Positions 55,089 to 60,349 of a DNA stretch of 64,000 nucleotides are shown here, in pieces. Within the stretch, counting starts at the first letter, position 1. Every line of letters begins with the position of its first letter. Origin of the DNA: Streptomyces sp. DT2A-34 (GTDB taxonomy: Bacteria > Actinomycetota > Actinomycetes > Streptomycetales > Streptomycetaceae); contig NZ_JASTWJ010000001.1 of the NCBI RefSeq assembly GCF_030499515.1, positions 2,646,001-2,710,000 on the forward strand, in the 5' to 3' direction. Under the pieces are notes generated by a model that was not told the origin of the DNA, did not search any database, and saw only the letters and a list, made by a program, of their open reading frames with translations. Both the position numbers and the translations under genes were made by a program.

Positions 55089-58000
55089 TCACCCCTTCTC
55101 CAAGTACTGCTCCCTCTCCTCGTCCAAGAGAGCCTCCAGGGCCGTCCGTAGGCCGGGAAGTCCCGTCAGCTCCGGATCGGCGGCCACCAGCGCCGCCGCC
55201 TCCTCCCGTGCCTCCGCGATGATCTCCTCGTCCTCGATGACCGCCAGGACCCTCAGACTGGACCGCGCTCCCGACTGAGCCTGGCCCAGGACGTCGCCCT
55301 CGCGGCGTTGTTCCAGGTCGATGCGGGAGAGTTCGAAGCCGTCGAGGGTGGACGCGACGGCGTTGAGGCGCTGGCGGGCCGCGCTGGCCTCCGGCATCTC
55401 GGTGACCAGGAGGCAGAGGCCGGGGGCGGAGCCTCGGCCCACTCGGCCGCGCAGCTGGTGGAGCTGGGAGACGCCGAAGCGGTCGGCGTCCATGATCACC
55501 ATCGCCGTGGCGTTGGGGACGTTCACGCCGACCTCGATGACCGTCGTGGCGACCAGGACGTCCGTCTCGCCGGCGGCGAAGCGGCGCATGACGGCGTCCT
55601 TGTCGTCGGGGTGCATCCTGCCGTGCAGGACCTCGACCTTGAGGCCTTGGAGAGGCCCCTTGGAGAGCTGGTCCGCCACGTCGAGGACCGCGAGCGGCGG
55701 GCGCTTCTCCGCCTCGTCCTCGGGGGACTTCTTCTTGCCGGCCTTCTTCGGGTCGTCCTCCTCGTCGCCGATGCGGGGGCAGACGACGTACGCCTGGTGG
55801 CCGTTCTCCACCTCCTCCCGCACCCGCTCCCAGGCGCGGGCCAGGAAGTGGGGCTTGTCGGCGGCCGGGACGGCATGGCTGGCGATCGGGGAGCGGCCGG
55901 CCGGGAGCTGGTCGAGGACCGAGGTCTCCAGGTCGCCGAAGACGGTCATGGCGACGGTGCGTGGGATGGGGGTCGCGGTCATGACGAGCAGATGCGGGGG
56001 CTGCTTTCCCTTGCCGCGCAGGGCGTCGCGCTGCTCGACGCCGAAGCGGTGCTGTTCGTCGACCACGACCAGGCCGAGGTCGTGGAACTGCACCTTGTCC
56101 TCGATCAGCGCGTGTGTGCCGATCACGATCCCGGCCTCCGCGGTGACCAGGTCGAGCAGGGCCTGGCGGCGGGCGGCCGCGCCCATGGACCCGGTCAGCA
56201 GGACCACCTTCGTGGCCTGCTCGGCCCCGCCCAGCATCCCGCCCTCGGCCAGCTCGCCCATCATCTCGACGATGGAGCGGTGGTGCTGCTGGGCGAGCAC
56301 TTCTGTGGGCGCGAGCATCGCGGCCTGGCCGCCGGCGTCGACGACGGCGAGCATGGCTCGGAGGGCCACCATGGTGTTGTGGGTCACCGTGAAGTTGTCG
56401 GTGATGTATGCGTGGCTCGGGTGAGCCACGCTGATGCACTGGGCCGGCTTTCGCCCCACGTACTCGACCGCGCGGATTCCCCGCCGGAAGGTGTCGTCCT
56501 TCGGCCGGGGCCGGACGCGTTCGACCTTGCGGGGCAGTCGGAACGGCACGTACTCGTCGGGCAAGGCAACCGACACGTTGAACGCATCTCGTTTCGGCAG
56601 GACGCGCGCACGGCCGCCCAGCGAGCGCACGAGCCAGGCGACATCGTCCGCAAGCCTGCGCGAGGCCGTGCAGAGCGACAGGCTCATACCGTCCGCATGG
56701 ATCGTGCCGTCGGTGTCCAGGAGCCCTTGCAACAGAGCGAGACGGTTCTTGGCCGACGTGTTCTTGAAAGCGTCGGGAACGAATTTGCCAGGCGACGTCT
56801 CGCCGCACAGGTTCAGGTCCCGCAGAGTCCGGATCACGGGGTTGCGGACACTGCCGGCAGGCTGGGAAAGCTGGATCGTGTAGTCGCAGCGGGAACCCTT
56901 TACAGGCACCAGACGGCATTCCGGCGCCACGGCGGCCGCCACGGCATCGCGAATCTCGTCGTCGATCGTGGACAGACGGAGATCGTGACGCAATGAGCCG
57001 CTCCCGAGGAGAAGGCCGAACAGGTAGGGGTCCAGCGGCAGCCCCGAGTCGCCGCCGAGATCGACCGGTGCTGCCGCTGGGAGGTACCACTTCGAGGACC
57101 CGTCTGCCTTCAACGTGTCGAGACGGATCTCCCGCGTCGTCATGATCTTGGGAGCCTGGCCCCGCTGCCACCCACCACTCGTGCCGACGATCCAGAGGTG
57201 TTCGTCGTCGCACTCCACGGAACTTCCGTCGGAGAGGACCAAACGCCACACATCGCGTTCTCCTTGTGGGAAGACGCCGTCGATCAGCGCGAGCTCCCCA
57301 TTCGGCACGACGACTTCGTCACCCACACTCATGTCACCCATCCGACGGAAACCGGAGGGTGTGAGCACGAGCGAGTCGAGGGGTTGCGCCTTGCCCGATC
57401 CGACCTCGCCCTGGAGCAGCCGGTGCATCGGGTGTTCGGTGGCGAGGTCGTCGAAGATCTCTTTGGAGACCTTCTTCTGGCCCTCGGTGAGGGTGAAGGG
57501 GAGGCGGTCGTCGAAGGCCGCCAGGAGGCCGTCCGGCTTGGGTTTGCGGGCCACCGCCGGGAGTTGGGCGTCGGCGTGACGGCGGCGGGCCAGGGCGACC
57601 TGGAGGACGAAGGCCTCGTCCCACTTGAGGCGGGAGCGGGCGTCCTCGATGTCCGCCTTGGTGTGCGGGCGGTGGATCTTCAGGAGAGCCTCGGGGAGGG
57701 AGACCAGGCCGCGGCCCTCGCGGAGGGAGTCCGGGAGGGGGTCTACGGCCTCCTGGGCGCTGGGCAGGACCGTCTGGATCGCCTTGCCGATCTTCCAGGA
57801 CTCCAGTTTGGCGGTGGCTGGGTAGATGGGGATCAGGGCGCCGGCCCAGGTCTCGACCGTCTCCGCTGCCTCGTCGTCGGCGCCGCGCAGCAACTCGTAT
57901 GCCGGATGCGCCAGTTGGAGGCGGCGGTTGAAGACGGAGACCTTGCCCGCGAACATCGCGCGTGTGCCCGGCAGGAGCTCCTTGTGGGGCTTGTGAACGC

Positions 58001-58319
58001 CGTTGCCGAAGAAGACCAGTTGGAGGCGGCCGCTGCCGTCCGTGATCGTGACTTCGAGGCGCTGGCCCTTGCCGCGGGGGGCCCTGCTGGAGGCGAAGGT
58101 GTGCAGGCGGGCGTCGGCGACCATCGCGACCACCGTGACGTGCTCGTCCATGGGGAGGTCGGCGAGGTGGGTGAGCTGGCCGCGCTCCTCGTATCTGCGG
58201 GGGTAGTGGTGCAGGAGGTCGCCGACGGTGTGCAGGCCGAGATGCTCGGCCATCACCTTCGCGGTGGGAGGGCCGAGCACTTTCTTCAGTGGTTCTTCCA
58301 GTGCGGGCACGAGATCCAT
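55089..58319 (-). CDS. recG: ATP-dependent DNA helicase RecG, intein-containing precursor
   Basis: Replication-fork remodelling helicase. Precursor of 1,076 residues from ATG 58319. Residues 1-310 hold the wedge domain and the start of the helicase up to the P-loop GEVGSGK. An intein of 338 residues (311-648) follows, then TMVALRAMLAVV and the rest of RecG: LAPTEVLAQQH, DEQHRFGVEQR (motif II), TATPIPRTVAM (III), VATTVIEVGVNVPNA (V), QLHQLRGRVGRG (VI). Extein length is 738 residues, right for RecG. Splicing is needed for an intact Walker A (GSGK-T), so RecG activity depends on the intein. Confidence 0.96.
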   Translation of the reverse strand: MDLVPALEEPLKKVLGPPTAKVMAEHLGLHTVGDLLHHYPRRYEERGQLTHLADLPMDEHVTVVAMVADARLHTFASSRAPRGKGQRLEVTITDGSGRLQLVFFGNGVHKPHKELLPGTRAMFAGKVSVFNRRLQLAHPAYELLRGADDEAAETVETWAGALIPIYPATAKLESWKIGKAIQTVLPSAQEAVDPLPDSLREGRGLVSLPEALLKIHRPHTKADIEDARSRLKWDEAFVLQVALARRRHADAQLPAVARKPKPDGLLAAFDDRLPFTLTEGQKKVSKEIFDDLATEHPMHRLLQGEVGSGKAQPLDSLVLTPSGFRRMGDMSVGDEVVVPNGELALIDGVFPQGERDVWRLVLSDGSSVECDDEHLWIVGTSGGWQRGQAPKIMTTREIRLDTLKADGSSKWYLPAAAPVDLGGDSGLPLDPYLFGLLLGSGSLRHDLRLSTIDDEIRDAVAAAVAPECRLVPVKGSRCDYTIQLSQPAGSVRNPVIRTLRDLNLCGETSPGKFVPDAFKNTSAKNRLALLQGLLDTDGTIHADGMSLSLCTASRRLADDVAWLVRSLGGRARVLPKRDAFNVSVALPDEYVPFRLPRKVERVRPRPKDDTFRRGIRAVEYVGRKPAQCISVAHPSHAYITDNFTVTHNTMVALRAMLAVVDAGGQAAMLAPTEVLAQQHHRSIVEMMGELAEGGMLGGAEQATKVVLLTGSMGAAARRQALLDLVTAEAGIVIGTHALIEDKVQFHDLGLVVVDEQHRFGVEQRDALRGKGKQPPHLLVMTATPIPRTVAMTVFGDLETSVLDQLPAGRSPIASHAVPAADKPHFLARAWERVREEVENGHQAYVVCPRIGDEEDDPKKAGKKKSPEDEAEKRPPLAVLDVADQLSKGPLQGLKVEVLHGRMHPDDKDAVMRRFAAGETDVLVATTVIEVGVNVPNATAMVIMDADRFGVSQLHQLRGRVGRGSAPGLCLLVTEMPEASAARQRLNAVASTLDGFELSRIDLEQRREGDVLGQAQSGARSSLRVLAVIEDEEIIAEAREEAAALVAADPELTGLPGLRTALEALLDEEREQYLEKG
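56376..57389 (-). mobile_element. Class 3-type intein with LAGLIDADG endonuclease domain in RecG P-loop
   Basis: 338 residues between GSGK and TMVAL. Starts AQPLDSLVL: Ala at position 1 instead of Cys/Ser. Block B reads DDEHLWIV with His 64 and Trp 66 (B:12); block F is AQCISVAHPSHAY with Cys 318 (F:4); the end is VTHN, followed by Thr +1. Trp-Cys-Thr together define class 3 inteins, which use the block F Cys as first nucleophile. Homing-endonuclease motifs: LFGLLLGSGSL (block C, about 123-133), where Ser replaces the catalytic Asp of LGDG, and LLQGLLDTDGTI (block E, about 219-230), intact. The nuclease is probably impaired. Confidence 0.93.
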
Positions 58320-58504
58320 TCCACACCACGGCACTGACAATGCCGTAGCGGTCGTGGCGGCCGTGTTGGTAAACGTCCCGGAAACCCCTGGTCAGGCGGC
58401 TCGTTCCGGCTCTAGGATGGCGCGCTCCGGCCATCCTTTCCGCGGTCACCGCCTCACCGGGACCGCCCGACCCCGCGCCGTCGCCAAGTCCCCCCAACGG
58501 CGCC

Positions 58505-60349
58505 GTGACGATGGACTCCCAGACCTCACAGTCATCCCAGGCCCCTCAACCGCCCCAGTCACCTCATACGTTCCAGGTCGACCTGCGCGGTCTGGTGGAC
58601 CTGCTCTCCCATCACCTCTACTCCAGTCCCAAGGTCTACCTGCGCGAGCTGCTGCAGAACGCGGTCGACGCCATCACCGCCAGACGCGCCGAGGAGCCGG
58701 GCGCGCCCGCCGTGGTCCGGCTGTACGCCGAGTCGGGCGCCCTGCGGGTCGAGGACTCCGGGGTCGGGCTCACCGAGGCGGACGTGCACAGCCTCCTCGC
58801 GACCATCGGACGCAGCTCCAAGCGTGCCGAAGGGCTGCAGGAGGCCCGGTCCGAGTTCCTGGGGCAGTTCGGCATCGGTCTGCTGGCCTGTTTCGTGGTC
58901 GCCGAGCGGATCCGCGTCGTCAGCCGCAGCGCCCGTACGCCGGACGCGGCGCCCGTGGAGTGGACGGCCACGGACGACGGGTCGTACACCGTGCGGACGC
59001 TGCCTGACGACGCCCGCGCCGAACCGGGGACCACCGTGCACCTGGTGGCGCGCGCCGGAGCCGCCGAGTGGCTGGCCGAGGACCGGGTGCTGGCGCTGGC
59101 GCGGGACTTCGGCTCGCTGCTGCCGTACGACGTCCGGGTCGGCGGCGAGGCGGTCACCGATCTGCCCGCGCCCTGGGACCGGCCGTACCCCTCCCCCGCC
59201 AACCGCAGGGTTGCCCTGGCCCGGCACTGTCACGACCTGTTCGGCTTCACGCCGCTGGACTCGATCGACCTGGACGTGCCGCTCGCGGGGATGCGTGGCG
59301 TGGCTTACGTCCTTCCCTCGGCGGTCAGCCCCGCCCAGCGGGCCGGCCATCGCGTCCACCTCAAGGGCATGCTGCTGACCGAGCGGGCCGAACAGCTGCT
59401 GCCGGACTGGGCGTTCTTCGTGCGGTGCGTGCTCGACACGGACAGTCTGCGGCCCACGGCCTCGCGGGAGTCGCTGTACGAGGACGAGACGCTGGCGGCC
59501 GTACGGGAGGCGCTCGGCGAAAGGATTCGGTCCTGGCTGACCGGCCTTGCGGCCGGTGATCCGGAACGGCTGGCGGCCTTCCTGGCCGTGCACCACCTGG
59601 GCGTGAAGTCCCTCGCGCGGCACGACAAGGAGATGCTGCGCACGATGCTGCCGTGGCTGCCCTTCGAGACGACCGACGGGCGGCTGTCCCTGGAGGAGTT
59701 CGCGCAGCGGCACCCGGTGGTGCACTTCACGCGGACCGTCGAGGAGTACCGGCAGGTCGCGCCGATCGCGTCCGCGCAGGGCGTCGGGGTGATCAATGGC
59801 GGTTACACGTACGACAGCGAGCTGGTCGAGGCGCTGCCGTCGGTGCGGCCGGGGACGGTCGTCGCCGAGCTGGACGCGGACACCGTGACCGCCCATCTGG
59901 ACTCGGTCGACCCGGCCGAGGAGCTGGCCCTGGCGGGCTTCCTGGCCGCCGCGCGGGCCAAGCTCGACCCCCTGGGCTGTGACGTCGTCCTGCGCGCCTT
60001 CCATCCGCTGTCCGTGCCCGCGCTGCACCTCGACGACCGGGAAGCCCGGCACGAGCAGGCGCGCGCGGAGGCGGAGGAGCAGGCCGACGACCTGTGGGCG
60101 GGCATCCTCGGCTCGCTGCGCGGCAGCACGCCACGCGCGCGTCTCGTGCTCAACCACCTCAACCCGCTCATCCGGAAGATCAGTTCCCTGGGCGATCCGG
60201 AGCTGATCGGCACCGCCACCGAGTCCCTCTACGGGCAGGCGCTGCTGATGGCGCAGCGACCGCTCAGGCCCGCGGACTCGGCGCTGCTGAACCGGGCCTT
60301 CATCGGCCTGCTGGAATGGGCCACGAACGGCGAGGAGGGCCGCCGATGA
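58505..60349 (+). CDS. Hsp90-like (HtpG-family) GHKL ATPase
   Basis: 614 residues from GTG 58505 (ATG 58511 also possible). A short Gln/Pro-rich N-terminus then the Hsp90 ATPase fold: LRELLQNAVDAI (Glu 48, Asn 52), VEDSGVGLT (Asp 84) and GQFGIGLLACFVV (120-132). The middle-domain Arg that contacts ATP is in PTASRESLYED. The C-terminal part is shorter and diverged from E. coli HtpG. It overlaps the TPR gene in ATGA. Plus strand between minus-strand recG and the DAK2 gene. Confidence 0.9.
   Translation: MTMDSQTSQSSQAPQPPQSPHTFQVDLRGLVDLLSHHLYSSPKVYLRELLQNAVDAITARRAEEPGAPAVVRLYAESGALRVEDSGVGLTEADVHSLLATIGRSSKRAEGLQEARSEFLGQFGIGLLACFVVAERIRVVSRSARTPDAAPVEWTATDDGSYTVRTLPDDARAEPGTTVHLVARAGAAEWLAEDRVLALARDFGSLLPYDVRVGGEAVTDLPAPWDRPYPSPANRRVALARHCHDLFGFTPLDSIDLDVPLAGMRGVAYVLPSAVSPAQRAGHRVHLKGMLLTERAEQLLPDWAFFVRCVLDTDSLRPTASRESLYEDETLAAVREALGERIRSWLTGLAAGDPERLAAFLAVHHLGVKSLARHDKEMLRTMLPWLPFETTDGRLSLEEFAQRHPVVHFTRTVEEYRQVAPIASAQGVGVINGGYTYDSELVEALPSVRPGTVVAELDADTVTAHLDSVDPAEELALAGFLAAARAKLDPLGCDVVLRAFHPLSVPALHLDDREARHEQARAEAEEQADDLWAGILGSLRGSTPRARLVLNHLNPLIRKISSLGDPELIGTATESLYGQALLMAQRPLRPADSALLNRAFIGLLEWATNGEEGRR

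Follow-up and report, generated by a model that had tools for sequence, protein, structure and literature searches.

The recG gene of Streptomyces sp. DT2A-34 carries an in-frame insert that divides the ATP-binding loop of the encoded helicase, which raises the questions of what kind of element this is, whether it still moves and what it means for RecG. We analysed the locus within a stretch of 64,000 nucleotides (positions 2,646,001 to 2,710,000 of contig NZ_JASTWJ010000001.1; hereafter the window, in whose numbering all positions are given), starting from a sequence-only reading that had proposed a class 3-type intein with a possibly dead homing nuclease. The features of the locus are collected in table 1.

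The insert in RecG and its splicing residues

Read from its likely start at 58319, the frame encodes a precursor of 1076 amino acids. Without the insert, 745 codons are left when counted from the TTG, or 738 residues from the Met at codon 8, and this computed length (745 minus 7) agrees with the 738-residue RecG that had been predicted. The insert splits the GSGKT of the P-loop between Lys and Thr and ends in VTHN, directly followed by Thr +1. With 1133.2 bits for the exteins on NF008167, the RecG equivalog model of NCBIfam (cut-off 995), the host protein belongs to the RecG family, and apart from the insert this RecG is complete. The claim that 338 residues lie exactly between GSGK and T is confirmed. 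Within the insert, the LAGLIDADG_3 model (PF14528) matches at 24.4 bits (cut-off 22.5). The GC content at third codon positions is 0.81 in the insert and 0.93 in the exteins, and the AlphaFold2 model is a confident one, with a pLDDT of 89.9 and a pTM of 0.89. At an E-value of 1e-3 the intein matches only itself in the 10.3-Mb genome. A search of the genome with the C-extein (E 1e-10) showed recG to be single copy; one other match, in two pieces of 37 and 39% identity, sits in a 1233-residue frame that is presumably Mfd. The divergent neighbour of recG (58505-60349, forward strand) has the look, by eye, of an HSP90-type ATPase of the HtpG family.

Table 1. Positions of the recG gene, the intein and its functional residues in the window.
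Feature	Position	Strand	Remarks
recG open reading frame with in-frame intein	55089..58340	-	open over 1083 codons; likely start 58319 (codon 8)
N-extein	57390..58319	-	ends ...GEVGSGK; Walker A Lys is the -1 residue, at 57390-57392
Class 3 intein with LAGLIDADG endonuclease domain	56376..57389	-	338 residues, codons 318-655
Ala1	57387..57389	-	no N-terminal nucleophile; Ala in 116/116
Block B, DxxHxW	57192..57209	-	D61 (B:7), H64 (B:10), W66 (B:12); each 116/116; aligns with D62, H65, W67 of 6bs8
LAGLIDADG homing endonuclease region	56490..57059	-	about intein residues 111-300; borders approximate
Ser130, motif 1	57000..57002	-	LGSG, residues 128-131; column of the PI-SceI motif-1 Asp (alignment to 1ef0)
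Asp227, motif 2	56709..56711	-	LLDTDG; second motif Asp kept; PI-SceI motif-2 column
Cys318, block F:4	56436..56438	-	predicted nucleophile; 116/116; aligns with C118 of the Msm DnaB intein 6bs8
Block G	56376..56384	-	T336 (G:5), H337 (G:6), N338 (G:7); each 116/116
Thr +1	56373-56375	-	P-loop Thr and predicted second splicing nucleophile; Thr in 116/116
C-extein, including stop codon	55089..56375	-	begins TMVALR (TMVALRAML...)

Class 3 inteins are defined by the WCT set of Trp at B:12, Cys at F:4 and Thr at G:5 (PMC3196547), and the same positions (12, 4 and 5 of blocks B, F and G) are given elsewhere (PMC5050341). In the RecG intein these columns hold W66, C318 and T336. The Ala start, the block B Trp and the block F Cys (A1, W66 and C318) had all been read correctly from the sequence, the latter two being in register with 6bs8. 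The earlier choice of the +1 Thr as the third defining residue did not hold, because in the Mycobacterium smegmatis intein DnaBi1 the WCT set (Trp67, Cys118 and Thr137) is paired with Ser at +1 (PMC6195587). The defining Thr is T336 at G:5; since T336 and Thr +1 are both present, the class assignment stands regardless.

Ten positions (K-1, A1, D61, H64, W66, C318, T336, H337, N338 and T+1) are each identical throughout the 116 distinct RecG-intein loci of Streptomyces, a set drawn from 149 parsed loci, the other 33 being sequence repeats; the RecG inteins L169 and L170, which have TMVAT after the site, lie outside it. Because all of these loci carry the conserved insert at one and the same site, a chance pattern is excluded. 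In a broader alignment of 42 sequences, which extends to PhoH inteins and further relatives with as little as 31% identity, the columns of H64, W66, C318 and H337 are invariant, while T336, N338 and the +1 residue are conserved at 90% or more. A profile of this alignment found the class 3 DnaB inteins 6bs8 (3.7e-23) and 6rix (6.7e-23) as its top matches in the PDB, with the HxW of block B, the block F Cys and the THN in register with both. The next matches were gp41-1 entries, namely 6riz (5e-22), whose block B reads EHLW and which is probably the gp41-1 variant with a grafted WCT set from PMC7664689, and 6qaz (1.2e-17), given in that paper as the structure of the class 1 gp41-1 intein. At the level of sequence, these alignments support the assignment of the RecG insert to class 3. 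Class 2 inteins, of the KlbA type, have a KlbA host, Cys at +1 and Ser at G:6 (PMC4031507), and this class was ruled out by the RecG host, Thr +1 and the His at G:6.

The closest known counterparts, the class 3 mini-inteins of mycobacterial DnaB (Msm DnaBi1, 6bs8; Mch DnaB1, 6rix/6riy), share Ala1, DxxHxW, the Cys at F:4 and the THN end, and likewise sit in a P-loop before a hydroxyl residue. They differ in their DnaB host, in the lack of an endonuclease, in Ser at +1 and in having Cys48 where the RecG inteins have Val47. The site itself, between Lys and Thr of the P-loop, has been called classic, in a passage in which RecG is unnamed (PMC5050341). The host too is already in print: RecG appears among bacterial intein hosts in the table of a 2018 review, an entry that matches the window intein in its host and, in that passage, gives no class, site or species (PMC5874633). 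The sequence-only reading, which knew of no described RecG intein of this class, was supported only in part. Searches of the open-licence literature brought up no description of a class 3 RecG intein, and an earlier listing in Tori and Perler 2011, a likely catalogue of class 3 inteins, is possible. The kind of intein is known, and the RecG copy adds to it.

Probable decay of the homing endonuclease

In an active LAGLIDADG homing endonuclease, each of the two LAGLIDADG motifs ends in an acidic residue. In the profile alignment, both motifs of the RecG intein align on those of PI-SceI (1ef0, 1dfa and 1vde; E 1.1e-17), which is likewise a two-motif LAGLIDADG endonuclease within an intein. PI-SceI, a yeast intein that we take to be class 1, has Asp in both motifs, whereas here the first motif has Ser; its two motif Asp residues, which we assume to be catalytic, occupy the columns of S130 and D227. 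The window copy thus has an acidic residue in the second motif and S130 in the first, where LGSG in place of LGDG had been noticed from the letters. Across the Streptomyces RecG inteins, the motif-1 column holds Asp in 82 of 116 copies, and Ser is found solely in the DT2A-34 copy. Shortened inteins of 247-316 residues account for 26 of the 116. On the intein tree, the states 'full length with both Asp' and 'other' change 21 times (shuffled mean 36.8), so the endonuclease has been lost many times. The Streptomyces RecG inteins L168 and L171-L182, of 247-273 residues, have lost part of the endonuclease (approximately residues 130-200) and kept the splicing residues.

Among close pairs, which are not independent of one another, the median dN/dS of the endonuclease is 0.165 when both nucleases are scored as intact (66 pairs), 0.245 when one is (48 pairs) and 0.54 when none is (8 pairs); for the splicing domain, the same three groups give 0.131, 0.115 and 0.208. 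Compared with its nearest relatives, L002 and L005, the window copy has a dN/dS of 0.66 in the endonuclease and 0.17 in the splicing part with L002, which is scored as keeping both motif Asp, and of 0.71 and 0.30 with L005, which has Asn at position 130. At sites constant in five relatives, all seven changes private to the window copy fall in residues 133-286.

That the nuclease of this copy is still active and the intein still homing is quite improbable. The frame is open, Asp227 is intact, both Asp residues are present in 69 of the 90 full-length copies (at least 330 residues), and the farther relatives L007 and L034, in which both motif residues are kept, give low endonuclease dN/dS values of 0.13 and 0.12, respectively. 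Against this, Ser occupies the column of the motif-1 Asp of PI-SceI, dN/dS is high relative to L002 and L005, and the seven private changes lie in the nuclease region. The same substitution and the same two comparisons support the earlier suspicion of a dead homing nuclease: the endonuclease of the window copy is probably inactive, to judge from one residue and drift, with nicking or residual activity possible. Because one motif Asp is replaced by Ser and the nuclease region has accumulated private changes, this intein is most likely a passenger that is kept by splicing only.

Distribution, exchange and relatives of the RecG intein

We searched 392 sampled Streptomyces genomes for the filled junction (THN/TMVAL) and the empty one (GSGKTMVAL), finding the former in 68 and the latter in 198, with no genome in both lists when these were compared by eye. 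The junction pattern missed three carriers (L019 of G254, L169 of G233 and L170 of G389), so the intein is present in at least 71 genomes; 123 were assigned to neither state. Intein-free alleles, which the sequence-only reading had proposed to look for in close relatives, are hence common, and two of them (L137 and L130) have more than 92% extein identity to the recG of the window. On a FastTree phylogeny of recG exteins, taken from 116 alleles with the intein and 30 without it, presence changes state 22 times (shuffled mean 27.65), and only 1 of 200 shuffles was as low. This clustering is slight and points to little, but not zero, signal of inheritance. Since the tree comes from the same gene, part of the patchiness could reflect recombination of recG itself.

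Comparison of the intein with its flanks indicates how alleles have moved. DNA identities of intein and extein are correlated (r = 0.79 over 6670 pairs), and in no more than 29 pairs is the intein closer than the extein. Much of the history is thus vertical or shared, and the majority of pairs can be explained by common descent together with faster evolution of the intein. Selected pairs depart from this pattern. L087 and L099 have flanks of 95-98% identity around inteins of 70-73%. For L014 and L027, the flanks within recG are 95-99.7% identical, apart from 88% in the 100 bases that directly precede the site, and the inteins 77-83%. The reverse is seen for L004 and L033, whose inteins are 96-99% identical, with 97% in the 100 bases on either side and 82-92% beyond. 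The window copy is 93-94% identical to L002 and L005 in both intein and extein, while its extein matches that of L018 at 94.0% and its intein at 80.6%. Such identity steps at the borders are evidence of horizontal replacement in some pairs; at least there, species have exchanged intein alleles. Single pairs such as L004 and L033 resemble co-conversion, but a general test of the flanks for it showed no consistent signal, with partial correlations that ranged from -0.13 to 0.19. The family has spread among the recG alleles of Streptomyces, and LAGLIDADG homing is the most likely route. The suggestion that the intein is fixed consequently fails for the Streptomyces RecG-intein family, in which presence is patchy and some alleles have been swapped.

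Outside Streptomyces, RecG inteins come from Actinomadura (P0001 and P0002), a member of the Actinomycetota (P0004) and Thermoleophilaceae (P0060). These share the host with the window copy, use the K/T site where both junctions are present and are 48-50% identical over the aligned part; they differ in their divergent endonucleases and are partial records. In a quick tree of 36 sequences, which held no class 1 set, the Streptomyces RecG inteins fall into a single clade with those of three other records (SH-aLRT 96), while inteins from PhoH and further hosts lie outside it; this implies movement mainly from recG to recG. A further RecG-like record, P0003, has an intein that ends in THK rather than THN before Thr and so is missing the terminal Asn.

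Among 394 genomes of the same taxonomic class, 39 match the intein at 1e-20. Among matches with flanks read, the RecG type is confined to Streptomyces, and other genera have PhoH or other hosts. The PhoH inteins of actinobacteria resemble the RecG intein in being class-3-type, with approximately 34-44% identity and AQ...THN/T ends, and are common in Streptomyces; they differ in host, in site (YMRGR/T) and in forming a separate clade. Insertion between R and T of this motif was seen in the Streptomyces loci L184, L188, L201 and L204. Other combinations were observed as well. L186 and L189 are inteins in the P-loop (GVGK or GTGK, then T) of a Clp-like AAA+ protein, the host being named by eye; they start with Leu or Phe, then Cys, and have HLW, a SSCIYV F block and THN, making them class-3-type without Ala1. 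The intein of L190 has Cys1 along with HLW, a block F Cys (VQCIRV) and THN, a class 1 start and the WCT set together. In phages, 572 of 50,697 records match, all below 60% identity, and the first match listed is from Mycobacterium phage Phrappuccino at 36.2%; a single viral contig also matched, with 39% identity. In this search for a direct phage donor, no recent source of the intein turned up among the phage and viral records.

Splicing and RecG function

The class 3 pathway, including its block F branched intermediate (PMC4031507), would apply to this site as follows. Cys318 would attack the bond between Lys and Ala1, which would give the block F branched intermediate, with the N-extein held in a thioester bond to Cys318; the N-extein would then pass to Thr +1, cyclization of Asn338 would release the intein, and an acyl shift would seal the native GSGKT loop between GSGK and T. 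As the precursor has the Walker A Lys and Thr separated by a 338-residue domain, ATP hydrolysis should be absent until splicing, and RecG activity should need it.

A decayed, non-splicing insert in a recG pseudogene has a precedent, the class 3 intein pseudogene of Arthrobacter FB24, which lost the His at B:10 and the Cys at F:4 (PMC3196547). The window copy has kept every splicing residue, including those two, its splicing domain is under purifying selection, the RecG exteins score over the curated cut-off and recG has no second copy, so that we rejected this explanation as very improbable. Harder to dismiss, though still unlikely, is that splicing is conditional and retained as a switch, for example a redox gate based on Cys318 as in the M. 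smegmatis DnaB intein. That intein, of the same class and likewise at a P-loop site, is redox-sensitive, and its non-catalytic Cys48 has been tied to redox sensing (PMC6195587). The splicing residues of the RecG inteins are invariant even in the shortened copies, and 114 of the 116 have a Cys at position 60, four residues ahead of H64. However, when we looked for the redox pair of DnaBi1, the Cys48 column was found to hold Val47, which is kept in at least 98% of the 116 loci. Invariant splicing residues would be expected in any case, since RecG should be inactive when splicing fails, and the many relatives without the intein suggest that a switch is not needed at the level of the genus.

We favour, with a probability of roughly 0.92, a class 3 intein at the 'classic' K/T site of Walker A that has spread among Streptomyces recG alleles and is most likely a splicing-only passenger in DT2A-34. 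A bolder and unlikely extension is that the homing cycle is ongoing in Streptomyces recG, with intact, point-dead, deleted and empty states coexisting and swapped between species, and that in endonuclease-dead copies such as this one splicing may have turned into a brake on RecG-driven fork regression that responds to stress.

The locus matters because the P-loop of RecG, a chromosomal repair helicase, should become functional through splicing. In Streptomyces, several stages of the homing cycle are represented at one site by natural alleles of a single class 3 intein, and the empty alleles L137 and L130 can serve as controls. With these alleles it could be tested how often the endonuclease dies while splicing is kept, and whether the splicing of a repair helicase ever acts as a signal.
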